From Rheinheimera mangrovi (GTDB lineage Bacteria > Pseudomonadota > Gammaproteobacteria > Enterobacterales > Alteromonadaceae): a DNA stretch of 64,000 nt. The notes under the pieces are model-generated. The model did not search any database. It was not told the origin of the DNA and saw only the letters and a program-made list of their open reading frames with translations. Position 1 is the stretch's first letter, and every line of letters begins with the position of its first letter. Below are positions 13,604 through 49,151 of this stretch, piece after piece. Where the stretch lies: assembly GCF_003990335.1 (NCBI RefSeq), contig NZ_CP034683.1, positions 1,192,501 to 1,256,500 on the forward strand, in the 5' to 3' direction. The position numbers and the translations under genes were made by a program.

Positions 13604-13604
13604 G

Positions 13605-27118: not shown

Positions 27119-27119
27119 A

Positions 27120-28625: not shown

Positions 28626-28626
28626 C

Positions 28627-30117: not shown

Positions 30118-30262
30118 GCGCTATTCCTTGGAAAAATCTTTGTTTTATGTCTGCCCGTTTTATGTGCAGCTGCAACTTTGTCATTTGTGCGCTTCTGGTC
30201 GCATCCGGTAATTTCGGATTGCCAGAGTTTGGTCATCGGACTTCTCTAGTATGGCTATAAAA

Positions 30263-30297
30263 AAGCCCCTGACAATCATTAGATAGTTCAGGGGCTT
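30263..30297 (-). terminator. Terminator/attenuator after the TonB receptor gene
   Basis: AAGCCCCTGA and TCAGGGGCTT form a ten-base stem with a 15-base loop; on the minus strand it is followed by a run of T. It lies 18 bases after the receptor stop and 146 bases before the first halogenase start, so it could tune expression of the downstream genes. Confidence 0.75.
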
Positions 30298-30314
30298 ATA
30301 TCGTCTAGCTACTC

Positions 30315-33215
30315 TTAATAGAAAGAGTAGTTAAAGTTCAGCATATAAGAAGGGCCAAACTGACGGCGGGTAGTGACAATGCCGTTGCCATCCACAGTTT
30401 CTTCATCCACGTCGGTCAGGTTAGTGCCTTGCAGTGACACCCGCAGACCTTCAAGCATATCCCATGGGCTTTGAGTGAAGTCATAGCTGATTTGGGCATC
30501 CACTAAACGTACACCGTTGCGTGAAGCTGTCTCAATTTTGTTCGAGCCACCACGTTGGTAGGTGCTGAAGTCTGAGCGGTCTGTCGCTGCTACCCTGAAT
30601 TCAAAACCTTCCATTTCATAGTAGGCGGTTAAGGAGTACACGCGGTCAGACTGGCCTGGAATACGGCTGCCGTCTTCCAGTTCTGCGTCTATCAGTGTGG
30701 CTGAGGCGGCTATACCAAAACCTTCCAGACTGTCATGTACCATGCTCAATGGCGTGTTGGCTGTGAACTCCAGACCTTTCACTTTGCCTTTTAAGCCATC
30801 CTGGAAGAAAGAGTAGTAGCCATAATCTGGTGGTGTCACCAAATCACCTGTGGAGTAGGCAATATCGGCAGGACCATAAGTGCCGTCCTGATCGATAATA
30901 CGGTCATGGAAGCCTGGGATAAAGTAATCAGCGCCACCGTTGGTTTCGTCATTACGGAAGTTAATTAAGCTGTTGCCGTCACGAGTCCAGTTCACCAGAT
31001 CTTTGTAGAACAATGCCATAGAAACATAACCGTCAGTTTCAAAGTAGTTTTCAAAGGACAAGTCAAAGTTGTTGGATTCCAGTGGTTTTAGCAATGGGTT
31101 ACCGGCAAATTTAGACCAGGGAGTACCGTATTTTTCGACATCGGCCACTGTGTTAGGAATGGCAATTAAATCGATGTTTTGGTCGAACTTCACAAAACCA
31201 GAAGCTTTCATTTGGTCAATACGGGCACGACTGATAGTTTTATTGGCCGCAGCACGAACATACTTGTTGTCACCCACTTCAAAGCTGATGTTTAAGCTGG
31301 GTAATACATGGCTATAGCTGGAGCCTTGTGTAACGTTACAATCTGTATCTATGGCTTTGTCGTTGTTAGCGTCACAGACCGCGAAGTTAGCACCTACTAT
31401 GCCGACATAACCGCTGGATGATTGGTCAGTTTTGACATACTGCAAGCCAATATTACCTGTGTAAGGAATACCGCCAACTTCGTTTTCAAAATCACCTTTT
31501 ACGTAAACAGTGCTGACTTCTTCATCGACACTGTAGGTATCACCTAAACGATCTGGTTCTAATAAACCCGCGTCATTTAAGGTGTAGGTGCCATCTCTGT
31601 AAGGGGCAAAACCATCATAAGCTACTACCTGACCAAAGCCAGCCCAGGTTAAATCTGCCAGACCATAGACATAGGCAGAAGGTATAGCGCTGGAGAATGG
31701 ATAAGACTCAGCTGTTGCGAAAAAGCCTTTGTTTTCCTTATCTTTGTAACGGTCGCTGTAGTTAACACCTAAAGTCACTTTGTTAAAGAAGGGGCTATCG
31801 ATAATACCGACAGTTTCAAAGCGATAGGTTTTTAACTCTTCAGTAAAGTCGGCATAGTTCAGGAAGCCGTCCTGCGCATTAAAGTAGCTGAATGGCTCGC
31901 CGTTAGCCTGTAATTCGCCAGTGGTAAACTGGTCGGCAAGATTCGCCATACCACCACCCCAGACCTGAGGACCAGTCAGTTGTAACAAGGCTGGATCGGC
32001 AAAGGCTTCCAGGCCTGAAGAGCCGGTAAAGAAAATACCATCAGGAGTCATGACAAAATCACGGCTACCTAATTGTGAAGAATCCAATGCACCAGAGCGG
32101 GCCAAGCCTGAATACGACTCGCCACGAGAATCGTGTTTTTCTGATTCACTGGACGCGACATCTAATTCAACAGACCAGTTGTCATTCAGTTGATACTCCA
32201 GATTCAGTCCAAAGACCTGCAGCTTGCCGTCTTTTTGCAGTGGATCTGTACGCAGTACTGGATTGGCATTGATTTGAGTGCCTGTGGAATTAGCACCTGA
32301 GCCTGTTACGTTAGCGGAAGAGAAGGGTTCGATAAAACCACGTAATACGCCTGAGTCTGAGTAGTCGATATCCAAAGCATCGAGCGTAATATCCAGCTTA
32401 TCGTTAGGACGGAATTCTAAGACGGCAGAGATAGTGTCACGCTCTAATTCGGTGCTGATGGATTGAGTGTCCAGACCTGTTGGCAGTATTTGGCCGTCAG
32501 CATTTTCACTGTAACCCCATACACCGTATTTACGTTGGTTGTTAGGGGATTCAGTGGTCGCAGCGGCAAAAGCCAGACCTATGGTGTCGTCAGCAAACTT
32601 CTCAACGAATGATAAAGCCAGGCGTTTACCTTTGTTGTCGAATTCAGGGTTATCAGAGTCGCTCTGATTGGCCTCATAAGTGCCATTGACGGTTAAAGTT
32701 TCTTTGGCTTGCAGCGGACGCACTGTGCGTAAATCTACAGTACCGCCTATGCCTTGTACCATTAGTGTGGCGTCAGTGGTTTTGAAGATGGTGGCGCCAG
32801 TCATAATTTCTGACGGGTATAAATCGTATTCCACACCACGGTTATCGCCTATACCAATCAGCTCACGGCCGTTCAGCGATGTACCTGTAAAGTCTTCCTT
32901 GAAGCCACGTACTGAAATACCTGAAGTTCGGCCGCCAACACGTTCACCAGACAAACCTGGTAAACGCGACAAAGATTCGGCGATAGATGAGTCTGGTAAT
33001 TTACCTATGTCTTCAGCTGAGATGGATTCCACTATAGATGAATTACCCATCTTTTCCGCCTGAGCACGGATTAAAGAGCCACGAATACCTTTAACTTCAA
33101 TAACCTCGACCTTATCAGCAGTTTTGTCTGTGTCCTGCGCCAATACCTGCCCTGAGCACAGAGCTGAGGAGACGGCTAAAGATAACAAAGCTGGTTTAAA
33201 TATTTGTCTGTTCAT
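30315..33215 (-). CDS. TonB-dependent outer-membrane receptor, carbohydrate type
   Basis: 966 residues from the ATG at 33215 (a TTG two codons upstream is unlikely). Signal peptide ends ...GQVLAQ; a TonB-box-like EVIEVKGIRGSL follows, then the plug domain (SIVESISAEDIGKLPDSSIAESLSRLPG and ISVRGF) and a long beta-barrel ending NFNYSFY with a terminal aromatic residue. The EDIGKLPDSSIAESLSRLPG plug is typical of receptors in oligosaccharide loci of aquatic gammaproteobacteria. It heads a minus-strand cluster with two halogenase-like proteins and GH97. Probable role: uptake of alpha-linked oligosaccharides. Confidence 0.94.
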   Translation of the reverse strand: MNRQIFKPALLSLAVSSALCSGQVLAQDTDKTADKVEVIEVKGIRGSLIRAQAEKMGNSSIVESISAEDIGKLPDSSIAESLSRLPGLSGERVGGRTSGISVRGFKEDFTGTSLNGRELIGIGDNRGVEYDLYPSEIMTGATIFKTTDATLMVQGIGGTVDLRTVRPLQAKETLTVNGTYEANQSDSDNPEFDNKGKRLALSFVEKFADDTIGLAFAAATTESPNNQRKYGVWGYSENADGQILPTGLDTQSISTELERDTISAVLEFRPNDKLDITLDALDIDYSDSGVLRGFIEPFSSANVTGSGANSTGTQINANPVLRTDPLQKDGKLQVFGLNLEYQLNDNWSVELDVASSESEKHDSRGESYSGLARSGALDSSQLGSRDFVMTPDGIFFTGSSGLEAFADPALLQLTGPQVWGGGMANLADQFTTGELQANGEPFSYFNAQDGFLNYADFTEELKTYRFETVGIIDSPFFNKVTLGVNYSDRYKDKENKGFFATAESYPFSSAIPSAYVYGLADLTWAGFGQVVAYDGFAPYRDGTYTLNDAGLLEPDRLGDTYSVDEEVSTVYVKGDFENEVGGIPYTGNIGLQYVKTDQSSSGYVGIVGANFAVCDANNDKAIDTDCNVTQGSSYSHVLPSLNISFEVGDNKYVRAAANKTISRARIDQMKASGFVKFDQNIDLIAIPNTVADVEKYGTPWSKFAGNPLLKPLESNNFDLSFENYFETDGYVSMALFYKDLVNWTRDGNSLINFRNDETNGGADYFIPGFHDRIIDQDGTYGPADIAYSTGDLVTPPDYGYYSFFQDGLKGKVKGLEFTANTPLSMVHDSLEGFGIAASATLIDAELEDGSRIPGQSDRVYSLTAYYEMEGFEFRVAATDRSDFSTYQRGGSNKIETASRNGVRLVDAQISYDFTQSPWDMLEGLRVSLQGTNLTDVDEETVDGNGIVTTRRQFGPSYMLNFNYSFY

Positions 33216-33352
33216 ATCCAATTATCCTGTTGTCAATTTATGGTGCATCAAAATTTTTTTTATTATCTGTACGGTAATCTATGCTTTAGTTGCATTAATC
33301 GTTCAGGGCTCTGTGCCTTTGGTCCAATTTTGATGACCACTTGGCGAACTAG

Positions 33353-33366
33353 CTTAATCGATTAAG
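33353..33366. promoter_or_regulatory. LacI-type operator upstream of the TonB receptor
   Basis: CTTAATCGATTAAG, a perfect 14-base palindrome with central CG, 138 bases upstream of the receptor ATG. It differs by one base from the dyad in the MFS promoter (23562). An imperfect copy, CTTAATCGTTTTAC, starts exactly 100 bases away at 33453, a spacing compatible with DNA looping. Confidence 0.7.
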
Positions 33367-33378
33367 TTTATTCTTTTT

Positions 33379-33421
33379 AAAAAAGCAACTGTCGGCTGTT
33401 AGGCTATAGAGTTGCTTTTTT
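33379..33421 (-). terminator. Long-loop hairpin, possible second terminator
   Basis: AAAAAAGCAACT and AGTTGCTTTTTT pair perfectly over 12 bases with a 19-base loop. It would stop minus-strand read-through from the isomerase gene before the receptor promoter. Confidence 0.55.
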
Positions 33422-33555
33422 AAATCGTTGGATGACGTTTTTTAATTCATCTCTTAATCGTTTTACTTCTGAATTTGACTGCTGTCAAGTCTGACCAGAA
33501 AATAATCAGCTAGAGGACAGATAAGACTGTAAAAAAATAAATGCAGATAAAAAAT

Positions 33556-33577
33556 AACCGGGCCTAAAAGCCCGGTT
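33556..33577. terminator. Terminator of the Tat-exported isomerase gene
   Basis: AACCGGGC/GCCCGGTT stem with a six-base loop; A- and T-runs on either side make it usable in both directions. Starts 25 bases after the stop of the minus-strand gene. Confidence 0.8.
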
Positions 33578-33601
33578 GTTTTTATGAGTGTGAAGGTGGC
33601 A

Positions 33602-34495
33602 TCAGCTTAATAATTTACCTAAAGCACTAAAACCCTGACGAATAGTTTCTATTCTGTTGTCGGTTTGGTCGCGCTCAACAAAAGCGTGGCGTAAACCAGC
33701 TGCTTGTGCCTTGGCAAAAATAGGTTTGAAATCAATCACACCTTTGCCGACATCAGCAAAACCACCAGCTTTGTCCATGTCTTTGACATGCCAGAGTGGG
33801 AAACGGCCAGGTTGTCTGGCGAACAACTCCAGTGGGCTTAAGCCTGCTTTGACCACCCAGTATAAATCCAGCTCCATTTGCACCAGTTTGGCGTCTGTCT
33901 CATTCAGCAGCACATCGTAAGGGACTTGATCAGACAACTTCACAAACTCAAAGTCGTGGTTGTGATAAGTCAGTTGCATACCAGCAGAGCGAATTTTCTC
34001 GCCTGCTTTGTTTAAAAACGCCGCTAAGGCTTTGTATTGGTCAATAGTTTTTCGGTCTGTGTCCATCAGATAAGGTAACACCAGATAGCTGTGCCCCATG
34101 ATTAAAGCCTGTTCAATCACCTTATCCAGATCTTTTTGCATCACATCCAGAGGGACATGAGCGGATGGAGCATTGAGTCCTTCGCTGTCCATAATCTTTT
34201 TTAACTCAGTGGCGCTTTGTTCGTAATAACCGGCAAATTCAAGCTGGGTATAACCTACACCAGCCACCAGTTTTAAAGTGTCGGCCACACTTTGAGCCAT
34301 CAGATCCCGCAGCGTATAGAGCTGTAAACCCGGTACTACTCTAGCGGTTGAGGTTGTAGGTTCTGCAGATAATGGCAGGGATGCCATACCTAAACCTGCC
34401 ACGCCTAAGCCCAAAGCGCTGAGCTTCAGAAATTGTCGCCGCTGCTGATCCAGCAACTCCGGCTGTTGTTTTATGGTCGAATGGTCGTATGGCAT
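33602..34495 (-). CDS. Sugar phosphate isomerase/epimerase-like TIM barrel, Tat-exported (1)
   Basis: 297 residues with a twin-arginine signal RRQFLKLSALGLGVAG (about residues 19-34). The body is a xylose-isomerase-like TIM barrel: GLQLYTLRDLM, LEFAGYYEQ, SAHVPLD, YHNHDFEF, QMELDLYW, WHVKDMD and a final VERDQTDN. The His, Glu and Asp residues that bind a divalent metal in this family are present. AGGAG gives a clear start. Periplasmic homologues in oxidative sugar loci are candidate 3-keto-glycoside lyases or epimerases; that assignment here is inference. Close paralogue of the protein encoded at 43616-44500. Confidence 0.88.
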   Translation of the reverse strand: MPYDHSTIKQQPELLDQQRRQFLKLSALGLGVAGLGMASLPLSAEPTTSTARVVPGLQLYTLRDLMAQSVADTLKLVAGVGYTQLEFAGYYEQSATELKKIMDSEGLNAPSAHVPLDVMQKDLDKVIEQALIMGHSYLVLPYLMDTDRKTIDQYKALAAFLNKAGEKIRSAGMQLTYHNHDFEFVKLSDQVPYDVLLNETDAKLVQMELDLYWVVKAGLSPLELFARQPGRFPLWHVKDMDKAGGFADVGKGVIDFKPIFAKAQAAGLRHAFVERDQTDNRIETIRQGFSALGKLLS

Positions 34496-34527
34496 GGCTT
34501 GCTCCTGCGATGGCTCTGTGATTAAGG

Positions 34528-35541
34528 TCAGCCTAACCCTGCCGGAGCAGGACCTGTGCTGGCACGTTGAATAAGGTCAAAAGGTAAAATGACTTTAGGT
34601 GCTTTACCCAAACGACCTTCGAGTAAATCTATTAATAAAGTAACTGCTGTACTACCAAACTCTTCAGCGGGCTGAGCTATGGTGGTCAGTGGCGGATCGG
34701 CAAAGGCTGCAAATGAAATATCATCAAAGCCTGCTACCGATATATCGCCAGGTACGGCAAAACCTTTTTGTTTTATGCCTTGTATAGCGCCTATCGCCAT
34801 TTCATCGTTTTCACAAAACATGGCAGTAGGTGGATTGGGTAAGTTCAGCAGTTCAGTGGCAGCTTTATGGCCAGACTGCAAAGTAAAATCACCAGGATAA
34901 AGCAAGCTTTCATCAAAAGTGACACCAGCTGCATCTAAAGCATCACGATAACCCGCCACCCTGTCGCGGGTCAAAGGACTGCGGGCCGGGCCTTTTATCA
35001 TTGCAATACGCTTGTGACCCAGCTGTAGTAAATGTTCGGTCATAGCACTGGCTGCAGCTCTGTTGTCCAATAACACCGTAGGGCAGGCGATACGATCTAA
35101 TACTTCACAGGCATTGACCATAGGTAACACTGAGCCTGCTTTCATCTCCAACTGGGCAAAAGGATTATTTGCCCTCAGTTGAATTAAACCGTCCGCTTGT
35201 GAGGTATGCACCATGCGGGCATAACTTTGTTCCATCTCTTCATCGGCTAGCGTGTTACATAACAGCAATGAATAACCTTTGTCGTGAGCAGCTTGTTGCA
35301 TACCACTGATCACCCTGGCAAAAAACACGTTGGCGACAGTAGGCACAAGCACGACCAGATTGCGGGTTTTGCCTGAGCGAAATTTCACAGCCATCAGATT
35401 GGGCTTGTAACCTACCTGTTTCACCGCGGACAGCACTTTAGTGCGGGTTTTCAGCGACACCAAATCAGGTTGCTGCAAAGCACGAGACACTGTGGCTACT
35501 GATACTCCAGCCAGCTGTGCTACGTCACGAATGTTGGACAT
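34528..35541 (-). CDS. LacI-family transcriptional regulator of the oxidative sugar locus
   Basis: 337 residues. Helix-turn-helix IRDVAQLAGVSVATVSRALQQP, then a sugar-binding-type effector domain ending GFDDISFAAFADPPLTTIAQP. Divergent from the Gfo/Idh/MocA operon and 32 bases upstream of the Tat isomerase gene, with which it may be co-transcribed. It is the natural candidate to bind the dyads in the shared intergenic region (35648 and 35821). The exact inducer is unknown. Confidence 0.92.
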   Translation of the reverse strand: MSNIRDVAQLAGVSVATVSRALQQPDLVSLKTRTKVLSAVKQVGYKPNLMAVKFRSGKTRNLVVLVPTVANVFFARVISGMQQAAHDKGYSLLLCNTLADEEMEQSYARMVHTSQADGLIQLRANNPFAQLEMKAGSVLPMVNACEVLDRIACPTVLLDNRAAASAMTEHLLQLGHKRIAMIKGPARSPLTRDRVAGYRDALDAAGVTFDESLLYPGDFTLQSGHKAATELLNLPNPPTAMFCENDEMAIGAIQGIKQKGFAVPGDISVAGFDDISFAAFADPPLTTIAQPAEEFGSTAVTLLIDLLEGRLGKAPKVILPFDLIQRASTGPAPAGLG

Positions 35542-35904
35542 GAATGCATTTCATTTTATGGATTTGCTCCGGATTTTATCTGTATATTCAACACCGTGCA
35601 TCTGTTTAACCCGCTTATCTTCAGCGGGTTGCTTTATTTCAATACGGATGTAACCGATATCATTTATAAAGTACTTTTTTATAAAAGTGAAGATGATTTT
35701 GACAAAAGCACTTATCCGGTTTAGTGCAATTGCTCTTATTTGGTGCGCTCATTTTTAGCTTTTGTGTAATTAAAGTGCAGGATTTGCGACAAACAACGGA
35801 TTTTCTATTGACGACACAAAATGTAATCCGTTACATTTTTTACAGCTTAAATTTTTGTTCTACAGTCACTGTCTGTTTGTGTCTGTAAACCACAAGGAAA
35901 AACC
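35542..35904. other. Divergent regulatory region between LacI gene and oxidoreductase operon
   Basis: 363 bases, AT-rich. Contains a sigma-70 promoter overlapping a dyad at 35808-35836 (listed separately) and a second, weaker site ATGTAACCGATATCAT at 35648-35663, about 107 bases upstream of the LacI ATG, which shares the ATGTAA half-site. This arrangement suits combined control of the operon and of the regulator itself. Confidence 0.55.
35808..35836 (+). promoter_or_regulatory. Promoter with overlapping operator for the sugar-oxidation operon
   Basis: TTGACG (35808-35813), a 17-base spacer and TTACAT (35831-35836). The dyad ATGTAA-TCCG-TTACAT (35821-35836) covers the spacer end and the whole -10 box, so a bound LacI-family protein would repress. 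The first gene's ATG lies 68 bases downstream. Confidence 0.7.
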
Positions 35905-37071
35905 ATGAAAACCCCAGGCAAGCAAAAAATCCGTATGGGTATGGTCGGCGGCGGAGAAGGCGCCTTTATTGGTGCTGTACATCGTCATGCTGCAGCTTTA
36001 GATGGCCAGATTGAACTGGTATGCGGCGCTTTTAGCCGTGATGCCGGCAATAATCAGCGTACTGGTGACGATTTGTGTGTTGATCCGAATCGTCTGTACA
36101 GCAGCTGGCAAGAGTTACTACAAAAAGAAGCTGCATTGCCGGAAGATAAGCGGATGCAGCTTTTAGTGATAGTGACGCCAAATCAGCTACATGTGCCTAT
36201 CAGCCGTGCTGCTATAGCTGCGGGTTTTCATGTGTTTTGTGAAAAACCAGCTGGTGTCACGCTAGCTGAAACTCAGCAACTGGCGGTGGATCTAATTGCC
36301 AGCAACAGTCTATATGGTCTGGCTCATACCTACCTTGGTTACCCTATGGTGTGGCAAGCCAAAGAGTTGGTACAAAACGGTACTTTGGGCACTATTCGTA
36401 AAATTTTTGTTGAATACCCACAAGGCTGGCTGACCGATGATTTAGAAAGCAGTCAGAACAAACAGGCCAGCTGGCGTACTGATCCTGCTCAGGCAGGGGC
36501 CAGTGGTTGTATGGCCGATATTGGTACCCATGCTTTTGGTATGGCGGAATTTATCAGTGGCCAGCATATCACCGAGCTTTGTGCTGAACTCAAAAGCCAT
36601 GTGCCTGGCCGCCGTCTTGATGATGATGGTGCAGCTTTGTTCCGTACAAACGGCGGTGCCAGTGGTGTGCTACTCGCAAGCCAAATTTGTGCCGGTGAAG
36701 AAAACGCACTAAAAATCCGTATTTATGGTGATAAAGGCGGGCTGGAATGGCACCAGATGGAACCTAATACACTGCTTGTTAAACCTCATGGCGCTCCTGT
36801 GCAGCTATTGCGTGCCGGAGCAGGTCAGCCGGGTTTAGGTGCAGAAGCTTCACGTCGTTGTCGTTTACCTGCTGGTCATCCTGAAGGTTATCTGGAAGCT
36901 ATGGGTAATTTATACCGTGATTTTGCCGCAGCTATCCGCTCTGGAGAAAAAGGGACTCCAACTGGTGTGCCTGGTATTAAAGCCGGTATGCGGGGTATGG
37001 CATTTATTGAAACTGTCAGTAGCAGTCAGCACAGCGAAGAAAAATGGCTGTCCATTCCTGCGATAGATTAA
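35905..37071 (+). CDS. Gfo/Idh/MocA-family NAD(P)-dependent oxidoreductase
   Basis: 388 residues, cytosolic. Rossmann N-terminus with GMVGGGEGAFIGAVHRHAA, VIVTPNQLHVPIS and the family motif CEKPAGVT (EKP, around residue 113). The C-terminal alpha/beta domain has the MADIGTHAFGMAEF helix with the conserved Asp and His. First gene of a plus-strand operon with AAGGA six bases upstream of the ATG. In 3-keto-sugar pathways such enzymes interconvert the C3 hydroxyl and ketone; I infer a cytosolic reduction or oxidation step of that kind. Confidence 0.92.
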   Translation: MKTPGKQKIRMGMVGGGEGAFIGAVHRHAAALDGQIELVCGAFSRDAGNNQRTGDDLCVDPNRLYSSWQELLQKEAALPEDKRMQLLVIVTPNQLHVPISRAAIAAGFHVFCEKPAGVTLAETQQLAVDLIASNSLYGLAHTYLGYPMVWQAKELVQNGTLGTIRKIFVEYPQGWLTDDLESSQNKQASWRTDPAQAGASGCMADIGTHAFGMAEFISGQHITELCAELKSHVPGRRLDDDGAALFRTNGGASGVLLASQICAGEENALKIRIYGDKGGLEWHQMEPNTLLVKPHGAPVQLLRAGAGQPGLGAEASRRCRLPAGHPEGYLEAMGNLYRDFAAAIRSGEKGTPTGVPGIKAGMRGMAFIETVSSSQHSEEKWLSIPAID

Positions 37072-37138
37072 GCCGCTCGCGAGTGCAAAGCAGTGTTCAA
37101 TTTTTTGATTAGCCAGTGTGCTGGCTCTAGGACTACAG

Positions 37139-38197
37139 ATGAGTAAAATGAAAGGGCCTGCCATATTTTTGGCACAGTTTATGGGCGACGAAGCACCATT
37201 TAACCACGTGGTCAGCATGGCCAAATGGGCTGCAGATTTAGGCTACAAAGGCATTCAGGTGCCGACTAATAATCCGGCCTTTTTTGATTTGGAATTAGCG
37301 GCGACCAGTCAGGCTTATTGTGACGATATTCAGGCTCAGTGCCGCGCTGCTGGTGTTGAAATCACTGAACTGTCGACTCATTTACAGGGCCAACTTGTCG
37401 CTGTGCATCCTGCTTATGACGAGCTGTTTGATAACTTTGCACCCGAAGCTTTACGTGGTAAACCTGCAGAGCGCACCGAATGGGCAGTGCAACAACTGAA
37501 ACTTGCCGCCAAAGCCAGTCAGAATTTAGGCCTAAAAGCTCACGCTACTTTTTCCGGCGCTTTATTGTGGCATTTGGTTTATCCATGGCCACAACGTCCT
37601 GCGGGTTTGGTAGAGCAGGGTTTTGCAGAACTTGCCAAGCGCTGGTTGCCAATTCTTGATGCCTTTGACGAAGCTGGTGTGGATGTCTGTTATGAAATTC
37701 ACCCGGGAGAAGATTTACACGACGGCGCTACCTTTGAGATGTTTTTAGCCGCCACCAATAACCATCCGCGCGCTAATATTTTGTTCGACCCAAGTCATTT
37801 TGTGTTGCAACAATTGGACTATTTAGATTTTATCGACCGCTATCACAGCAGAATCAAAATGTTTCATGTCAAAGATGCTGAGTTCCGTCCTAATGGTCGC
37901 AGCGGTGTCTATGGCGGCTATCAGGATTGGGTCAACAGACCAGGACGTTTCCGTTCTTTAGGTGACGGTCAGGTTGATTTTAAAAGTATTTTCAGCAAGT
38001 TAACTCAATATGATTTCGATGGTTGGGCCGTGCTGGAATGGGAATGTTGTTTAAAAGATTCAACCCAGGGCGCGCGCGAAGGGGCTCCATTTATCGCGTC
38101 TCACCTGATTGAAAAAGCTGGCAGAGCCTTTGATGACTTCGCTGGCGCTAAAACAGACGAGGCGCGTAATCGTCGGATCTTGGGGTTAAAGCCGTAA
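37139..38197 (+). CDS. Sugar phosphate isomerase/epimerase-like TIM barrel, cytosolic (2)
   Basis: 352 residues from the ATG at 37139 (AGGA eight bases upstream); a GTG at 37118 would add seven residues. No export signal. Motifs: MAKWAADLGYKGIQVPTNNP, ITELSTHLQGQL, AHATFSGALLWH, CYEIHPGEDLHDG with the metal-binding Glu, FDPSHFVLQQ, MFHVKDAEF and VLEWECC. It lies 67 bases after the Gfo/Idh/MocA gene, a common pairing in inositol- and keto-sugar-related operons. Likely acts on the product of that oxidoreductase. Confidence 0.9.
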   Translation: MSKMKGPAIFLAQFMGDEAPFNHVVSMAKWAADLGYKGIQVPTNNPAFFDLELAATSQAYCDDIQAQCRAAGVEITELSTHLQGQLVAVHPAYDELFDNFAPEALRGKPAERTEWAVQQLKLAAKASQNLGLKAHATFSGALLWHLVYPWPQRPAGLVEQGFAELAKRWLPILDAFDEAGVDVCYEIHPGEDLHDGATFEMFLAATNNHPRANILFDPSHFVLQQLDYLDFIDRYHSRIKMFHVKDAEFRPNGRSGVYGGYQDWVNRPGRFRSLGDGQVDFKSIFSKLTQYDFDGWAVLEWECCLKDSTQGAREGAPFIASHLIEKAGRAFDDFAGAKTDEARNRRILGLKP

Positions 38198-38248
38198 TCG
38201 CATAAAAACAATAAGCACCGCTCTTACATAACGGGGAAGACGAATAGA

Positions 38249-39481
38249 ATGAACAGCATAAAAATACGCTTGTGCAGCATGATGTTTTTACAGTTTTTTA
38301 TCTGGGGTGGCTGGTTTGTCACTTTAGGTACTTTTTTAAGCCAGAACCTGCAGGCCACTGGTCCACAAACAGGCATGGCCTTTTCGACTCAATCCTGGGG
38401 GGCCATTATTGCGCCCTTTATCGTAGGTTTAATTGCCGACCGTTTTTTTAACGCTGAACGTTTATTGGGTATTTTGCACCTGGTAGGCGCTGTGCTGATG
38501 TACCTGATGTATCAGGCCGCTGATTTTACAACCTTTTATCCACTGGTTTTAGGCTACATGCTGGCCTATATGCCAACGTTGGCACTGGTGAACTCAGTCT
38601 CTTTTGGTCAATTAAAACAACCTGAACTGGAGTTTGGTCAAATCCGGGTTTGGGGCACTATTGGCTGGATAGCTGCTGGTTTGGTGATCAGTTATGCCTT
38701 TGGCTGGGATGCTCAGCAGGCTATAGCTGATGGCGCGCTGAAAAATACCTTCCTGATGTGTGCTGTGGCGTCCTTGGTGTTGGGTGTATATAGCTTTACT
38801 TTACCTGCAACACCACCTGCGGGTCGTGGCCAACAATTAAAATTAGGTGAGTTGCTGGGGCTGGATGCGTTAGCGTTGCTGAAAGACCGTAACTTCGCCT
38901 TGTTCTTTTTAGCCTCAGTGCTAATTTGTATTCCGCTGGCTTTTTATTACCAGAATGCCAACCCTTTCCTGACCGGAATTGGTGTTGAAAACGCCACAGG
39001 TAAAATGACCTTAGGGCAAGTGTCTGAAGTGTTATTTATGCTGGCTTTACCTGTCTTTCTGAATCGTTTTGGTATTCGCTGGACCTTATTATTAGGCATG
39101 GCGGCCTGGGTTTTACGTTATGTGCTGTTTGCTTATGGTGATGCAGGTCAAGGAGTGTGGTTGCTGGTCATTGGTATAGCACTGCATGGTATTTGTTATG
39201 ACTTCTTTTTTGTCTCGGGCCAGATTTATACCAACAGCAAAGCGGGCGTTAAAATTCGCAGTGCTGCACAGGGCCTGATCACTTTAGCGACTTACGGTAT
39301 AGGTATGCTGATAGGCTTTAGCGTGGCAGGTCAAATCACTCAGGCTTACACCAGTGCTGAAGCCACAGACTGGACTTCCATCTGGTTATTCCCAGCTGCT
39401 TTTGCTGGTGTTGTGCTGGTGCTGTTTGCGCTGATTTTCAAAAACGAGCCATTGCAGCAAGCCGAGGACAAACAGCCATGA
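38249..39481 (+). CDS. MFS permease of the nucleoside:H+ symporter (NupG-like) family
   Basis: 410 residues, twelve helices. MMFLQFFIWGGWFVTLGTFL at the N-terminus, FGQIRVWGTIGWIAAGL in the middle and the ICYDFFFVSGQIYTN segment are hallmarks of the NupG/XapB group. In sugar operons such members carry sugars rather than nucleosides. Its stop overlaps the next start (ATGA), so translation is coupled. Probably imports the keto-sugar or monosaccharide made in the periplasm. Confidence 0.88.
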   Translation: MNSIKIRLCSMMFLQFFIWGGWFVTLGTFLSQNLQATGPQTGMAFSTQSWGAIIAPFIVGLIADRFFNAERLLGILHLVGAVLMYLMYQAADFTTFYPLVLGYMLAYMPTLALVNSVSFGQLKQPELEFGQIRVWGTIGWIAAGLVISYAFGWDAQQAIADGALKNTFLMCAVASLVLGVYSFTLPATPPAGRGQQLKLGELLGLDALALLKDRNFALFFLASVLICIPLAFYYQNANPFLTGIGVENATGKMTLGQVSEVLFMLALPVFLNRFGIRWTLLLGMAAWVLRYVLFAYGDAGQGVWLLVIGIALHGICYDFFFVSGQIYTNSKAGVKIRSAAQGLITLATYGIGMLIGFSVAGQITQAYTSAEATDWTSIWLFPAAFAGVVLVLFALIFKNEPLQQAEDKQP

Positions 39482-40380
39482 AGCCACAACTTCCACGTCG
39501 TGAGTTGTTAAAACAACTGGCTGCTGGTGCTATTGGTGCTTCGGTCTTAGGTTCAGGTTTATTACTGTCAGGTGCTGCAGCTGCGGCGCCTGCGACAGCC
39601 GGCACACTGAAAGGCAATATCCGTCATTCAGTCAGCCGCTGGACTTATGGTGACTTATCCATTGAAGAGCTTTGCTTGCTGGTGAAGTCTTTAGGTTTTA
39701 ATGCGATAGACTTAGTGGGTCCTGAAGACTGGCCTGTGTTGAAAAAACATGGCGTGGACAGCTCCATGTGCAATGGCGCAGAGCTGAATCTGGTCGATGG
39801 CTGGTCCGATCCTAAGTTTCACCCAGAGCTGATTAAACGCTACTTAAAACACATAGATTTAGTGGCAGAGGCAGGCTACAAAAACCTGATCTGCTTTAGC
39901 GGCAATGCCCGTGGTATGGACAGAGAAATCGCCTTACAAAATGCAGTCACTGGTTTAAAACAGATTTTACCTCATGCTGAAAAGCGGGGTGTGGTGCTGC
40001 AAATGGAGCTGTTTAACAGCAAAGTCGATCACCCTGATTATCTGGCCGATGGCACAGCCTGGGCTATTGAGCTTTGCAAACGATTGAACTCGCCGAACTT
40101 TAAGCTTTTATATGACATCTACCATATGCAGATTATGGAAGGTGACATTATCCGCACTATCAAAGATAACCATCAATATTTTGGCCACTATCACACTGCA
40201 GGCGTGCCGGGCCGCCATGAAATTGATGACTCGCAGGAGCTGAACTATGTTGCTATAGCGAGCGCTATTCGTGACATAGGCTTTACCGGCTATCTGGCGC
40301 AGGAATTTGTACCAACACCAAAAACCAAAGAAGGCAGGGCGCAGTCATTGGCTCAGGCTATTCGTATTTGTGACGTTTAA
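39478..40380 (+). CDS. Hydroxypyruvate-isomerase-like TIM barrel, Tat-exported (3)
   Basis: 300 residues. Twin-arginine signal PRRELLKQLAAGAIGASVLG (residues 5-24), predicted cleavage after the A-rich run near residue 40. TIM-barrel markers: SRWTYGDLSIEELCLLVKSLGF, LICFSGNARGMDRE, LQMELFNSKVDHPDY, LLYDIYHMQIMEGD, HYHTAGVPGRHE and QEFVPT, which fit the hydroxypyruvate isomerase (Hyi) branch. Export makes a classical cytosolic Hyi role unlikely. Four-base overlap with the MFS gene. Confidence 0.9.
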   Translation: MKPQLPRRELLKQLAAGAIGASVLGSGLLLSGAAAAAPATAGTLKGNIRHSVSRWTYGDLSIEELCLLVKSLGFNAIDLVGPEDWPVLKKHGVDSSMCNGAELNLVDGWSDPKFHPELIKRYLKHIDLVAEAGYKNLICFSGNARGMDREIALQNAVTGLKQILPHAEKRGVVLQMELFNSKVDHPDYLADGTAWAIELCKRLNSPNFKLLYDIYHMQIMEGDIIRTIKDNHQYFGHYHTAGVPGRHEIDDSQELNYVAIASAIRDIGFTGYLAQEFVPTPKTKEGRAQSLAQAIRICDV

Positions 40381-40489
40381 ACCGAGACGAAGCGGCCTGA
40401 CCGCTTCGCCAATCATAATGAAAACAGGGCATGTAGCTAAAGTCATTCAGAGATGACTGGTACAAAACCCGCCCAACAGGGGACAACAG

Positions 40490-42181
40490 ATGACAGTTGC
40501 GCAGAATCATTACGACGCCATAGTGGTCGGGTCTGGCATCAGCGGTGGCTGGGCCGCCAAAGAGCTGACCGAAAAAGGCCTGAAAGTTTTATTGTTAGAA
40601 CGTGGCCGCGATATTGAACACATCAAAGATTACACCAATGCTTTTAAAGAGGCCTGGGACTACCCGCATCGCGACAAAGCCACAGTAAAAATGAAGGAAC
40701 TGCATCCGGTGTTAAAGCGGGATTATCCGCTCAACGAAAGCACTTACGGCATGTGGGCCAGCGATCAGGATTCGCCTTATGTCGAGAAAAAGCGCTTCGA
40801 CTGGTTCCGTGGTTATCATATGGGCGGACGCTCTTTGTTATGGGGTCGCCAGAGTTACCGCTTAAACGAAGCTGATTTTGAAGCCAATTTAAAAGAAGGC
40901 ATAGCGGTCGACTGGCCTATCCGTTACAAGGATCTGGCGCCCTGGTATGACTATGTCGAGCGTTTTGCTGGTATTTCAGGCAATAGGGATGGTCTGGACG
41001 TATTACCTGATGGTCAGTACCTGCCTGCTTTTCCTCTGAACATAGTGGAACAGTCTGTGTCTGAACGACTGAAAAAAGCTTTTGGTGGCACCCGACATTT
41101 GATCTGTGGCCGTACAGCCAACATTTCGCAGCCTAAACCTGAACAAAACCGCGTTAATTGCCAATACCGCAATAAATGCTGGTTGGGTTGTCCTTTTGGT
41201 GCTTATTTCAGTACTCAGTCTTCGACTTTGCCTGTGGCGATGAAAACCGGCAATTTAACAGTGCGTCCATTTTCTATCGTCACTCAAGTGTTGTATGACA
41301 AAGACAAAAAACGCGCCCGTGGTGTGGAAGTGCTGGATAGCGAAACTATGCAGACTTACGAGTTCACCAGCAAAATAGTATTTCTGAATGCGTCCGCCTT
41401 TAACTCGACCTGGGTGCTGATGAACTCAGCCACGGATATCTGGGAAGGTGGTCTGGGTAGCAGCAGCGGAGAGCTGGGTCACAACGTGATGGACCACCAC
41501 TTAAATGCTGGTGCTTTTGGTGAAATCGAAGGTTTTGACGACAAATACTATTTTGGCCGTCGTCCTACAGGTTTTTATATCCCACGCTTCCGTAACTGGG
41601 GCGGTGATAAACGTGATTATTTACGTGGTTTTGGTTATCAGGGCGCAGCCAGTCGTCAGGGCTGGCAAAGAAACGTGGCTGAGATGGGCATAGGTGCCGA
41701 TCTGAAAAACGCTTTAGCTGAACCTGGTACCTGGACTATAGGTATGAGTGGTTTTGGTGAGATTTTACCGGATCACAGCAATAAAATTTCGTTAGACCGT
41801 ACTGTCAAAGACAAATGGGGTTTACCAGTGCTGGCAATGGACGCTGAACTGAAAGCCAACGAAATCAAGATGCGTAAAGATATGATGCAGGATGGTATCG
41901 ATATCCTTACCGCTGGCGGCGCTAAAAACGTTCAGGGTTTTAATGGTGAATGCCATCCGGGCAAAGGTATCCATGAAATGGGCACTGCACGTATGGGTCG
42001 CGATCCTAAGACCTCGGTATTGAATGGCTTTAACCAGGTGTGGGATGCACCCAACGTCTTTATCACAGATGGTGCTGCTATGACCTCAGCTTCTTGTGTG
42101 AACCCGTCTTTAACCTATATGGCGCTGACAGCCCGTGCTGCGGCTTATGCTGTAGACGCGCTGAAAAAAGGAGACCTGTAA
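40490..42181 (+). CDS. GMC-family FAD dehydrogenase, large subunit (glucoside 3-dehydrogenase/gluconate dehydrogenase type)
   Basis: 563 residues. N-terminal FAD site VVGSGISGGWAAKEL (about 12-26), GGRSLLWGRQSYR, and C-terminal HEMGTARMG with His495 and Asn538 in VNPSLTYMAL as the GMC His/Asn pair. Cysteines 224, 230 and 234 in CQYRNKCWLGC have the spacing that binds a [3Fe-4S] cluster in FAD-dependent glucose dehydrogenase. It has no signal peptide; export is expected in complex with the Tat-bearing small subunit encoded one base downstream. No cytochrome subunit gene is adjacent, unlike classical three-gene gluconate or glucoside dehydrogenase operons. Confidence 0.92.
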   Translation: MTVAQNHYDAIVVGSGISGGWAAKELTEKGLKVLLLERGRDIEHIKDYTNAFKEAWDYPHRDKATVKMKELHPVLKRDYPLNESTYGMWASDQDSPYVEKKRFDWFRGYHMGGRSLLWGRQSYRLNEADFEANLKEGIAVDWPIRYKDLAPWYDYVERFAGISGNRDGLDVLPDGQYLPAFPLNIVEQSVSERLKKAFGGTRHLICGRTANISQPKPEQNRVNCQYRNKCWLGCPFGAYFSTQSSTLPVAMKTGNLTVRPFSIVTQVLYDKDKKRARGVEVLDSETMQTYEFTSKIVFLNASAFNSTWVLMNSATDIWEGGLGSSSGELGHNVMDHHLNAGAFGEIEGFDDKYYFGRRPTGFYIPRFRNWGGDKRDYLRGFGYQGAASRQGWQRNVAEMGIGADLKNALAEPGTWTIGMSGFGEILPDHSNKISLDRTVKDKWGLPVLAMDAELKANEIKMRKDMMQDGIDILTAGGAKNVQGFNGECHPGKGIHEMGTARMGRDPKTSVLNGFNQVWDAPNVFITDGAAMTSASCVNPSLTYMALTARAAAYAVDALKKGDL

Positions 42182-42182
42182 T

Positions 42183-42731
42183 ATGGACAGACGCGACCTT
42201 TTGAAAATGATAGCGGCCGCAACCGGTATGGCTATGGTTGGCGGCGATTTATGGGCTGCAGATCAGAAATCAGCGGATGCGGGTAAAGCACTGTTTACCC
42301 AGTCAGATATCGCCTTTTTGGATGAAATTGCCGAAACCATTTTGCCAAAAACCGACACGCCAGGTGCCAAAGAGGCGGGCTGTGGTGCTGCAATGGCGGT
42401 GATGGTGGCTGATTGTTACGATTTGCCGCAACAAACTATTTTCTTTGAAGGCTTAAAAAGCATTAAAGCCTTAGCGAAAAAGCAGTTTGGCAAAGACTTT
42501 ATGCAACTGACTGCGGCGCAGAAACATGAATTACTGTCGAAGCTGGATCAGGAAGCCAAACAAGCTTCAGGCCCGGCACCTCATTATTTTATCTTGGTAA
42601 AACAGCTGACACTGATGGTGTTTTTCACCTCTAAAGTCGGAGCCACTGAAGTGCTGCGTTATGTCGCAGTACCAGGCCGTTATGACGGCAATATGCCGTA
42701 TAAAAAAGGCGATCGCGCCTGGGCGACCTGA
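42183..42731 (+). CDS. Gluconate 2-dehydrogenase subunit 3-family small subunit, Tat signal
   Basis: 182 residues. Twin-arginine signal MDRRDLLKMIAAATGMAMVGG, then FLDEIAETILPKTDTPGAKEAGC, the conserved opening of the family, and a C-terminal VPGRYDGNMPYKKGDRAWAT. Its known job is to escort the FAD subunit through the Tat pathway and stabilise it. AAGGAG inside the end of the large-subunit gene serves as ribosome-binding site. Confidence 0.93.
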   Translation: MDRRDLLKMIAAATGMAMVGGDLWAADQKSADAGKALFTQSDIAFLDEIAETILPKTDTPGAKEAGCGAAMAVMVADCYDLPQQTIFFEGLKSIKALAKKQFGKDFMQLTAAQKHELLSKLDQEAKQASGPAPHYFILVKQLTLMVFFTSKVGATEVLRYVAVPGRYDGNMPYKKGDRAWAT

Positions 42732-42760
42732 TCCGGCTTCGCTTTTTCCTGTGTTTAATC

Positions 42761-42783
42761 AGGCGGCTTAGTCCGCCTTTTTT
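42761..42783 (+). terminator. Terminator after the dehydrogenase subunits
   Basis: AGGCGG/CCGCCT hairpin followed by a run of T. It separates the dehydrogenase genes from the DUF1080 gene by 30 bases, so part of the transcript may end here and part read through. Confidence 0.65.
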
Positions 42784-42793
42784 AAAGGTAACT

Positions 42794-43555
42794 ATGATGA
42801 AATATGTATGGATTGGCGCCGCTTTATCCTTAAGCACAGCTGTGATGGCCGCCACGGATCTGAGCAAGTTAACAGATGCCGAGCGTCATGCCTTAGCTGC
42901 TAAAACTGAAGTCTGGACTCCAGTGCCGCCTGTAGTCACTGCAGCAGAAGGCCAGGCGCCTTCAGATGCGATACAACTGCTGGATAAAAACCTGTCACAG
43001 TGGACCTCAGTCAATACTGGTGCCGCAGCTCAGTGGACTATGACGGACGGTGTGTTAACGGTAAAACCTGGTACCGGCGATATCCGCAGCAAGGAGTCGT
43101 TTTGCGATATTCAGCTGCATCTGGAATGGCGTGTTGGTAAAGACCGGATGGATAAAGAAGGCCAGCTGCGTAACAACAGCGGTATCTTTTTACAGGAAAT
43201 GTACGAAATCCAGATTTTAGATTCCTACCAGAATAAAACCTATCCCAATGGTCAGGCTGGTGCTGTCTACAAACAGACTATTCCATTAGCCAATGCAACC
43301 CGTCCGTCGGGCGAGTGGCAGGAATACGACATTATCTACAAAGCGCCACGTTTTGACGGTGAAAAACGCTTATCGCCTGGTTATGTCACAGTGCTGCACA
43401 ATGGTGTGTTGTTGCAAAACCATACTGAAATTGCTGGCACCACAGAATGGATAGGTGCGCCGCAAGTCAAAGCGCATGGCTGCTTGCCACTGAAATTGCA
43501 GGATCATGGCGACAGTGTCAGTTTCCGCAATATCTGGGTTCGTAAGCTGGACTAA
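42794..43555 (+). CDS. DUF1080 protein (3-keto-disaccharide hydrolase family), secreted
   Basis: 253 residues with a Sec signal (MMKYVWIGAALSLSTAVMA). The concanavalin-like DUF1080 fold is shown by LLDKNLSQWTS, WTMTDGVLTVKPGTGDIRSKESFCDIQLHLEWRV taken in parts, NNSGIFLQEMYEIQILDS and the closing LQDHGDSVSFRNIWVRKL. Members are described as hydrolases (or lyase/hydratase partners) of 3-keto-glycosides. Position right after a GMC dehydrogenase supports that. Starts at 42794 or the next ATG three bases on. Confidence 0.93.
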   Translation: MMKYVWIGAALSLSTAVMAATDLSKLTDAERHALAAKTEVWTPVPPVVTAAEGQAPSDAIQLLDKNLSQWTSVNTGAAAQWTMTDGVLTVKPGTGDIRSKESFCDIQLHLEWRVGKDRMDKEGQLRNNSGIFLQEMYEIQILDSYQNKTYPNGQAGAVYKQTIPLANATRPSGEWQEYDIIYKAPRFDGEKRLSPGYVTVLHNGVLLQNHTEIAGTTEWIGAPQVKAHGCLPLKLQDHGDSVSFRNIWVRKLD

Positions 43556-43570
43556 TTGTGTCTTTATGAC

Positions 43571-43596
43571 AAAAGGCTGGTTGATACCAGCCTTTT
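43571..43596. terminator. Bidirectional terminator
   Basis: AAAAGGCTGG and CCAGCCTTTT form a ten-base stem with a six-base loop and continue into T/A runs. It serves the DUF1080 gene and the convergent isomerase gene. Confidence 0.85.
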
Positions 43597-43615
43597 TTAT
43601 GAGCAAAACCTGTTG

Positions 43616-44500
43616 TTACTTCATATCCGCAATAATAGCCTGCAAGCCTTTCAGTGAAGCTTCCACACTTTGCATCGGTGTCATACCTTGAGGGTAAGAT
43701 TCCTGTTCCACCACCAGCCATTGAGTGCCACCTATAGTTTTATTGGCGGTGATTAAGGCTTTCCAGTCAGTTGTGTCTTTGCCAATAATTGGATCTTCAG
43801 TATTACCTGGCTCTGGCGCCGAAGCTTTGTAGTGAGTGGTGATAGTACGGCCCGGATAAGCTTTGACAAAATCCACCGGATCTTTGCCTGCTACTTCAGT
43901 CCAGCCGACATCTTGCTGCAAAATCACTTTGCTATTGGTGTTTTTGCCAATTACATCCCATGGGGTTTTGCCCATTTCACCGAGCATTTCAGGTTTGTGG
44001 TTGTGATAACCGACATGCATGCCATGTGGCGTCAGTTTTTCCTGCACTGCGGCTAAATCAGCGGCCACAGCTTTGGCACCTTCGACGGTAAAAGCACGCT
44101 GATCCATTGGAATAATTAAATAATGGCAATCTATGGCTTTGTAAAAAGCCACTGTGGCGTCAAGTTGCTCCGGGCTAAGCTTTTCAAAAGGCACATGAGC
44201 GCCTGAAGCTTTTAAGCCAAGTGTGTTTAAAAAAGCTTTTAAACCAGCAGGGTCATTGGCATATTTGCCAAAAAAGCCTGCAAACTCAACACCATCAAAA
44301 CCCATAGCGGCGAGTTTAGTTAGTGTGCCTTCAAAGTCGGCTTGCATCGCATCTTTGACTGACCATAACTGCACACTCAATTGAGGTGTTGTGGCAGAAA
44401 CTGGCGCTGTATCGGCATAGCTGAAGCCTGCCGCAGTGCTTGCTAAAATCAGGCTGAGTACCTGTGCGGTTTTTGTCAGTTTTTTCTTTAAAAAAAGCAT
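43616..44500 (-). CDS. Sugar phosphate isomerase/epimerase-like TIM barrel, Sec-exported (4)
   Basis: 294 residues with a Sec signal peptide (about residues 1-29, ending near FSYA-DT). Same motif series as the Tat-exported paralogue at 33602: VQLWSVKDAM, GVEFAGFFGKYA, SGAHVPFE, YHNHKPEM, QQDVGWTEVAG, THYKASAP and VEQESYPQG. Metal-ligand positions are kept. Why two related periplasmic enzymes use different export routes is unclear; a Tat substrate folds with its metal in the cytosol. A LacI-type operator lies 24 bases upstream of its ATG. Confidence 0.9.
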   Translation of the reverse strand: MLFLKKKLTKTAQVLSLILASTAAGFSYADTAPVSATTPQLSVQLWSVKDAMQADFEGTLTKLAAMGFDGVEFAGFFGKYANDPAGLKAFLNTLGLKASGAHVPFEKLSPEQLDATVAFYKAIDCHYLIIPMDQRAFTVEGAKAVAADLAAVQEKLTPHGMHVGYHNHKPEMLGEMGKTPWDVIGKNTNSKVILQQDVGWTEVAGKDPVDFVKAYPGRTITTHYKASAPEPGNTEDPIIGKDTTDWKALITANKTIGGTQWLVVEQESYPQGMTPMQSVEASLKGLQAIIADMK

Positions 44501-44523
44501 AACCCTGTCCTTTTTATTGTCAT

Positions 44524-44537
44524 TGGAAGCGGTTTCA
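44524..44537. promoter_or_regulatory. LacI-type operator upstream of the Sec-exported isomerase gene
   Basis: TGGAAGCGGTTTCA is an imperfect 14-base dyad (TG-AA-CG-TT-CA positions match) with central CG. It lies just ahead of the ribosome-binding site of the minus-strand gene, in the place expected for a repressor site. It differs from the other operators in this window, so a third regulator may read it. Confidence 0.55.
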
Positions 44538-44653
44538 GAGTGCTTGATTTTAGCTTATAGATCAATGCTAAATGCGTTAGTTGGCAGGTTCTTGGCGGAT
44601 TAAACTACTGGATGAAATAAATGGGCTGCAGTAATGCAGCCCAATGCATAAAA

Positions 44654-48957: not shown

Positions 48958-49060
48958 GTGAACTGTTCCGCGACTGCAGTGTGATATGCTTAATAAAACT
49001 TCATTTTTCATATTTTGGCAAGGCTTTTAGCGGCGAAATGTTTAAATTTTGTGTTGAACA

Positions 49061-49107
49061 TTTACACCGGGGTGTTAAATAGCTAGAATCGAACTGAAAC
49101 GTTTTAG
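49061..49107 (+). promoter_or_regulatory. Fructokinase promoter with downstream operator
   Basis: TTTACA (49061-49066), 17-base spacer, TAGAAT (49084-49089). The dyad CTGAAACGTTTTAG (49094-49107, central CG) covers the expected transcription start, a standard repressor position. It resembles operators of LacI-type sucrose regulators such as ScrR, recalled from memory. No such regulator gene is adjacent. Confidence 0.65.
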
Positions 49108-49151
49108 AATGTGATGATATTTTCTGGTCTCACTCAAAAGGAATAATGCAG

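Follow-up and report, generated by a model that had tools for sequence, protein, structure and literature searches.

A four-step scheme for glycosides was published for Agrobacterium in 2023, with a glycoside dehydrogenase (GlycDH) and its twin-arginine translocation (Tat) partner, the O-glycoside beta-eliminase AtOGE, the putative hydratase AtHYD, for which the evidence is preliminary, and a Gfo reductase (PMC10628242). The Caulobacter crescentus lactose cluster, described in 2022, combines LacABC with a DUF1080 protein, a transporter, two epimerases and a reductase, and related clusters are known from Halomonas titanicae and from Bacteroidetes (PMC9007349). We report here on a locus of ten genes at positions 33602-44500 of a 64,000-nucleotide stretch of the Rheinheimera mangrovi genome (the window; NZ_CP034683.1, 1,192,501 to 1,256,500; the host genome is one 4.63-Mb contig), which, judged from its sequence, probably encodes an oxidation-elimination-hydration-reduction pathway for glycosides split between two compartments. 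Oxidation-elimination pathways also act on thio-glycosides and drug pseudo-glycosides.

The locus resembles the Agrobacterium tumefaciens pathway, as described in PMC10628242, in its dehydrogenase with a Tat-signal partner, TIM-barrel beta-eliminase, second barrel (a putative hydratase) and Gfo reductase, and differs in having two AtOGE-like barrels, a DUF1080 protein, a further barrel (TIM_C) and a NupG-like carrier. With the levoglucosan pathway LgdA-B1-B2-C it would share the reaction order of oxidation, elimination, hydration and reduction, as well as the presence of proteins annotated as sugar phosphate isomerase/epimerase, of which that pathway has two; the first step there is NAD-dependent, however, and the part of the published account drawn on here describes no GMC protein, DUF1080 protein or compartment split (PMC7676230). 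The Caulobacter LacABC cluster was likened to the locus by its published description, and Halomonas titanicae BH1, named in the same paper, is the strain of one of the loci compared below (L045), which we take to be the cluster drawn in Fig. 6B (PMC9007349). A three-subunit dehydrogenase of the LacABC type has a cytochrome c subunit, whereas the window locus is without a cytochrome gene. The structures 8tcd, 8tcr, 8tcs, 8tct, 8tda, 8tde and 8tdi presumably belong to the broad-specificity oxidation/elimination pathway of Bacteroides (a 2024 Nature paper). The first step there is reportedly taken by a Gfo/Idh/MocA dehydrogenase, with a DUF1080 protein said to take part, whereas at the window locus it would fall to a GMC/subunit-3 pair. 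The chemistry proposed here is well supported and not new: the locus is of a known kind, because the same scheme has been published in Agrobacterium, the same reaction order occurs in the levoglucosan pathway, and related clusters exist in Caulobacter and Halomonas. A first-pass annotation of the window had read the locus as a proteobacterial version of such a pathway, which is not new in view of the Agrobacterium (PMC10628242) and Caulobacter/Halomonas (PMC9007349) publications. Interest now centres on TIM_C, on the presence of two eliminase-like barrels and on the probable regulon of two operons.

The features of the locus are given below from left to right, with leaders (Tat or general secretory, Sec) read by eye from the translations.

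33602..34495, minus strand: TIM_A, candidate 3-keto-glycoside beta-eliminase (AtOGE-like); Pfam AP_endonuc_2; Tat leader RRQFLK.
34528..35541, minus strand: LacI-family regulator, CytR-like; Pfam LacI and Peripla_BP_3.
35808..35837, plus strand: sigma-70-like promoter TTGACG-18-TACATT of the Gfo operon, from a consensus scan.
35822..35835, no strand: putative LacI-type operator TGTAATCCGTTACA, in the LacI/Gfo intergenic region, inside the promoter-like match.
35905..37071, plus strand: Gfo/Idh/MocA oxidoreductase (Pfam), cytosolic, candidate 3-keto-glucose reductase; no leader.
37118..38197, plus strand: TIM_B, cytosolic 2-hydroxy-3-keto-glucal hydratase by homology (8ro4 match); no leader.
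38249..39481, plus strand: NupG-like major facilitator superfamily (MFS) protein, candidate carrier for uptake of the freed glucal or 3-keto-sugar; Pfam Nuc_H_symport, 403 bits.
39478..40380, plus strand: TIM_C, candidate 3-keto-sugar epimerase or isomerase by fold matches; Tat leader RRELLK.
40490..42181, plus strand: GMC flavoprotein, presumed catalytic subunit of a glycoside 3-dehydrogenase; Pfam GMC_oxred N and C; C-x5-C-x3-C; no leader.
42183..42731, plus strand: Gluconate_2-dh3 small subunit (subunit 3); Pfam PF13618, 126 bits; Tat leader RRDLLK.
42794..43555, plus strand: DUF1080 (PF06439) protein, candidate 3-keto-glycoside lyase or hydrolase; Sec-type leader.
43616..44500, minus strand: TIM_D, second AtOGE-like barrel (8bvk match), accessory in Rheinheimera; Sec-type leader.

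All ten genes were confirmed at these coordinates as open reading frames (ORFs) with their translations. The Pfam cut-off for the named family was exceeded by nine of the ten (three AP_endonuc_2, LacI, Gfo/Idh/MocA, Nuc_H_symport, GMC N and C, Gluconate_2-dh3, and 3keto-disac_hyd, which is DUF1080), while TIM_D scored 30.7 bits for AP_endonuc_2, just below the cut-off of 31.1, and matched 8bvk with an E-value of 7.5e-20. The gene inventory of the first-pass annotation (GMC protein with C-x5-C-x3-C, Tat-bearing subunit 3, DUF1080 protein, cytosolic Gfo protein, NupG-like MFS protein and LacI regulator) was borne out in coordinates and families, as were its four barrels, two with Tat leaders, one with a Sec leader and one cytosolic. 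Its placing of oxidation and cleavage in the periplasm and reduction in the cytosol holds by homology, with hydration now added to the cytosol. When the whole host genome was searched, PF01261 gave three matches, all above cut-off and all at this locus (TIM_A, TIM_B and TIM_C); PF06439 matched three times and PF13618 twice, the extra copies including a second DUF1080-GMC-subunit-3 operon. Given that all three PF01261 matches of the genome lie here and that 80 loci show this neighbourhood completely or partly, the gene set is no chance grouping.

These 80 loci (L004-L083) are the best 80 of 566 GMC relatives. Hits above 80 bits anywhere in the fetched stretch were counted, and because some loci stop at contig ends the following family counts are lower bounds: GMC 80, subunit 3 79, TIM_C 73, DUF1080 68, TIM_A 58, TIM_B 53, Gfo 52, LacI 52, NupG 47 and TIM_D 8. 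The closest GMC relatives (the first ten of the matches listed) came from Rheinheimera or gammaproteobacterial bins, with 94-98% identity. The comparison of neighbourhoods that the first-pass annotation had proposed found most of the genes together in Alteromonas, Halomonas, Xanthomonas and Hymenobacter. Most loci from Rheinheimera and Alteromonas, and some from Paraglaciecola, had the order TIM_A-LacI-Gfo-TIM_B-NupG-TIM_C-GMC-subunit 3-DUF1080, which was rearranged in the Halomonas and Paracoccus relatives; the Halomonas locus L045 had nine of the ten families, all except TIM_D. Most of the set was also found on plasmids of Xanthomonas sacchari (with a nucleoside permease, cytochrome c and one AtOGE-like barrel) and of Palleronia and Paracoccus (with ABC transporters and two barrels with leaders). 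A plasmid of Hymenobacter volaticus (Bacteroidota) carries GMC, subunit 3, a nucleoside permease, Gfo, the hydratase, a c-type cytochrome, TIM_C, two TIM_A-like barrels and DUF1080. Its three non-hydratase barrels have twin-arginine leaders (RRTVLK, RRSFLK and RRSFLT) and its hydratase has none, which is the same layout of one cytosolic and three exported barrels; a set of three exported barrels, earlier considered unusual, is therefore found outside this locus too. Only a few enzymes of the oxidation-elimination route are known, and the route would also exist in the form of clusters with as many as ten genes in Gammaproteobacteria, Alphaproteobacteria and Bacteroidota, sometimes plasmid-borne.

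In the pathway that we propose, the Tat-carried GMC/subunit-3 enzyme would oxidise a glycoside at C3 in the periplasm, where TIM_A (together with TIM_D in Rheinheimera) would free the aglycone by metal-assisted beta-elimination to give 2-hydroxy-3-keto-glucal. The DUF1080 protein would cleave 3-keto-glycosides of another linkage or anomer, and TIM_C would epimerise or isomerise the 3-keto sugar so that other sugars could join the same route. The product would be imported by the NupG-like carrier; in the cytosol TIM_B would hydrate the glucal to 3-keto-glucose, and the Gfo protein would reduce this to glucose. The LacI protein would repress the operon at TGTAATCCGTTACA and the second DUF1080-GMC-subunit-3 operon through a near-copy of that site. 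The observed basis of the proposal is formed by gene families, leaders, active-site residues, the conserved neighbourhood and the operator, while the substrates and the parts played by TIM_C and the DUF1080 protein are what we infer.

AtOGE binds its metal through His132, Asp163, His189 and, weakly, Glu233, and His134 is catalytic; the H134A mutant was inactive, and H189A had less than 0.1% activity (PMC10628242). The best PDB match of both TIM_A (114 bits) and TIM_D (75 bits) was AtOGE (8bvk), followed in both cases by 8tct/8tcd/8tcs (104-110 bits for TIM_A). A MAFFT alignment drawn from L004-L084, from which fragments of up to 250 amino acids and hits of up to 80 bits were left out, showed all five residues in TIM_A, in TIM_D and in every one of the 67 homologues. 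TIM_A and TIM_D are thereby supported as candidate bond-cleaving beta-eliminases. That the exported barrels may include the lyase, as was suggested at first, is supported for these two; TIM_C looks epimerase/isomerase-like. The eliminase-like protein of the Halomonas locus L045 is 60.9% identical to AtOGE. When the analysable homologues were classed by a simple leader rule, those of TIM_A had 22 Tat-like leaders, 20 Sec-like leaders and one without (n = 43), and those of TIM_D were Sec-like in 8/8; an export-type leader is likewise present on a protein from Rhizobium that shares 72% identity with AtOGE across 131 residues. At 10004-16287 of L077 (Bowmanella denitrificans), two GMC/subunit-3 pairs were observed in one cluster, the second adjoining a TIM_D relative (49% identity), a hint that TIM_D could have arrived together with another dehydrogenase.

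TIM_B matched 8ro4, named '2-hydroxy-3-keto-glucal hydratase', at 598 bits over residues 9-357, with 252 of 348 positions identical (72.4%), and its homologues had no leader in 47/47. The entry gives only the molecule name and is presumably AtHYD itself. The best PDB match of the Gfo protein was 3v5n (357 bits), named only Oxidoreductase, and the sugar product of the periplasmic steps is the presumed substrate of the NupG-like protein. The DUF1080 protein, with its Sec-type leader, scored 138 bits for PF06439 against a cut-off of 26.8, and its best PDB match was 4qhz (250 bits), a 'putative glycosyl hydrolase'. BT2157 has been named a 3-ketotrehalose hydrolase (PMC9007349).

In 72 of the 80 loci TIM_C was the gene immediately preceding GMC, and its homologues had Tat-like leaders in 65 of 71 cases. 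An exception to the pairing was observed on a Parabacteroides distasonis plasmid (L102 8884-9765), where a TIM_C relative, 54% identical to the Xanthomonas protein, has no annotated GMC gene nearby. The His-x-His of AtOGE-type eliminases (strand 5) is absent from TIM_C, which has M-E136-L-F138 there; at the place of this motif TIM_B reads E-I-H and TIM_C E-L-F. Because of these differences, the four barrels are split on sequence into two eliminase-like proteins, one hydratase and TIM_C, which lacks the catalytic His and forms a class of its own. E136, D172, H198 and E235 of TIM_C, at metal/catalytic positions, were invariant in 32/32 sequences, and catalysis is therefore favoured over a scaffold role. 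A profile search of the PDB at E 1e-5 returned 23 chains, none an eliminase by name, and aligned the Glu-Asp-His-Glu site residues to psicose epimerases. The predicted model (predicted local distance difference test, pLDDT, 88) has a fold like those of ketose 3-epimerases and the 3-keto-glucoside 4-epimerase YcjR, which several functions share about equally. Identity to E. coli YcjR (3-keto-D-glucoside 4-epimerase, 6wn6) was only 16-19%, TIM_C differs from it in being exported, and ketose 3-epimerases and hydroxypyruvate-isomerase-like proteins scored equal to or above YcjR.

We propose TIM_C as a candidate periplasmic 3-keto-sugar epimerase or isomerase. A more specific and tentative suggestion, to which we give well under an even chance, is that TIM_C, working beside the membrane dehydrogenase, is the first example of an epimerase that acts on 3-keto-glycosides or 3-keto-hexoses in the periplasm, turning galacto- and other configurations into the gluco form accepted by the eliminases, the hydratase and the reductase. 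If true, this would explain how a small enzyme set copes with many glycosides, and would answer the fate of 3-ketogalactose, which has been called unknown (PMC9007349). Possible too, though less likely than not, is that TIM_C is not a sugar epimerase: it could be a 2-keto/3-keto isomerase or a repair enzyme returning migrated ketones to C3, a lyase of another type, or a folding partner of GMC, although the four invariant residues speak against the last of these. As a candidate epimerase or isomerase, TIM_C marks a compact, testable gap in a pathway acting on plant O- and C-glycosides.

The feature set of a glycoside 3-dehydrogenase, a GMC protein with the cysteine motif and a Tat-carried PF13618 partner, is present at the locus. 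The C-x5-C-x3-C motif is CQYRNKCWLGC (spacing read from the sequence), and we take its cysteines to be those of an iron-sulfur cluster. Subunit 3 followed GMC directly downstream in 78 of 80 loci and presumably carries the GMC subunit across the membrane; we infer that the pair oxidises at C3. Small c-type cytochromes were observed inside equivalent clusters of Xanthomonas sacchari (L093 6775-7071) and Hymenobacter (L101 8359-8832). They are likely the electron acceptor, which Rheinheimera would have to encode elsewhere. With the X. sacchari cluster cytochrome as query, four places were found in the host genome, none of them in this locus.

The best NCBIfam match of the LacI protein was CytR (311 bits, below the cut-off of 436). 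Promoter-like matches in the region numbered 14 versus 15.0 in shuffles, and TTGACG-18-TACATT therefore draws its weight only from the operator overlap. The consensus TGTAAYCSGTTACA, derived from the window site and the Halomonas sites, occurred exactly in 51 of the 80 loci (59 sites in 1.55 Mb) and the backwards control pattern 0 times; because the loci are related and some supplied the pattern, the count is not an independent test. With one mismatch allowed, TGTAAYCSGTTACA gave 10 hits at 7 distinct places in the host genome versus 4 control hits. The second DUF1080-GMC-subunit-3 operon (C1:2492139-2495346, equal to L090 9140-12347) lies between two transposase-like ORFs (5900-6730 and 13210-14061, by eye) and has the operator-like TGTAATCGGTTTCA 34 bases upstream of its DUF1080 ORF. 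In 17 of 18 Rheinheimera genomes with this operon, a site with up to two mismatches lay within 400 bases upstream of DUF1080, and the exact TGTAACCCGTTACA was found upstream of the operon in two genomes (L134 and L135). Across 22 Rheinheimera genomes, GMC1 was present in 18 and GMC2 in 18, both in 17, neither in 3 and one only in 2 (Fisher p = 0.01 for co-occurrence, kinship ignored). The window operon and the second operon probably form one regulon, regulation of which in the cell would fall to the LacI protein, and the operator offers a handle for finding its members.

Three near-copies of the operator were also observed at L119 4397-14812 (C1:4396396-4406811), beside another LacI gene, an N-acetylglucosamine (GlcNAc)-2-epimerase family protein, a phosphomannomutase-like protein, an esterase and a TonB receptor; this is a separate putative sugar regulon with a nearly identical operator. 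At L120 4923-4936 (C1:1460422-1460435), a one-mismatch operator-like site lies upstream, by about 175 bases, of the gene for a TonB-dependent receptor, which is possibly an outer-membrane importer of the same regulon, or the site may be due to chance. Because of these sites at L119, with its own LacI gene, and at L120, the operator consensus is not unique to this regulator.

Several observations weigh against the proposed pathway. Identity to AtOGE is modest (TIM_A 33.2%, TIM_D 27.7%). A cytochrome c gene was not found at the window locus, C-x-x-C-H occurring in no frame of at least 50 residues in 33222-44653. The parts can occur apart: Gfo, TIM_B and NupG are missing from the stretches fetched for four loci of the Rheinheimera type (L009 and L011-L013), and in loci of the Cellvibrio type these queries picked up TIM_C-GMC-subunit 3 only. 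One of the 18 second-operon loci (L137) covers the region and has no operator-like site there even at three mismatches. Finally, the best-matching solved GMC chains in the PDB are fructose and glucose dehydrogenases, and membership of the GMC family is therefore not proof of C3 oxidation. These solved proteins, with the ketose-epimerase-like TIM_C, would suit a cluster in which GMC oxidises free sugars or polyols and isomerases and the reductase reshuffle monosaccharides with no cleavage of glycosidic bonds; against it stand, in the same cluster, the DUF1080 protein, the hydratase relative at 72% identity and two eliminase-like barrels in which the AtOGE site is complete, and we regard this account as improbable. 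A variant of inositol/inosose catabolism, with IolE/IolI-like TIM barrels and the Gfo protein as inositol dehydrogenase, is very improbable: TIM_A, TIM_B and TIM_D hit no NCBIfam model except IolE, and IolG comes second for Gfo, but these scores are far under the curated cut-offs (IolE 51-69 bits versus 290, IolG 55 versus 355), TIM_B scored 598 bits to the glucal hydratase versus 40 bits to the solved IolE 3cny, and GMC/subunit-3 and DUF1080 proteins are not known as inositol enzymes.

Next to the locus, window 25097-33221 holds a GH97 protein (317 bits to the NCBIfam alpha-galactosidase, cut-off 800), two tryptophan-halogenase-like flavoproteins (one tested, the other assigned by eye) and a TonB-dependent receptor, which accompanies the locus in some Rheinheimera only. 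Beyond TIM_D, window 47032-50102 holds a GH13 enzyme with a weak amylosucrase-like C-terminal domain and a fructokinase-like kinase (220 bits, cut-off 450); both are conserved in several Rheinheimera loci and point to possible sucrose use.

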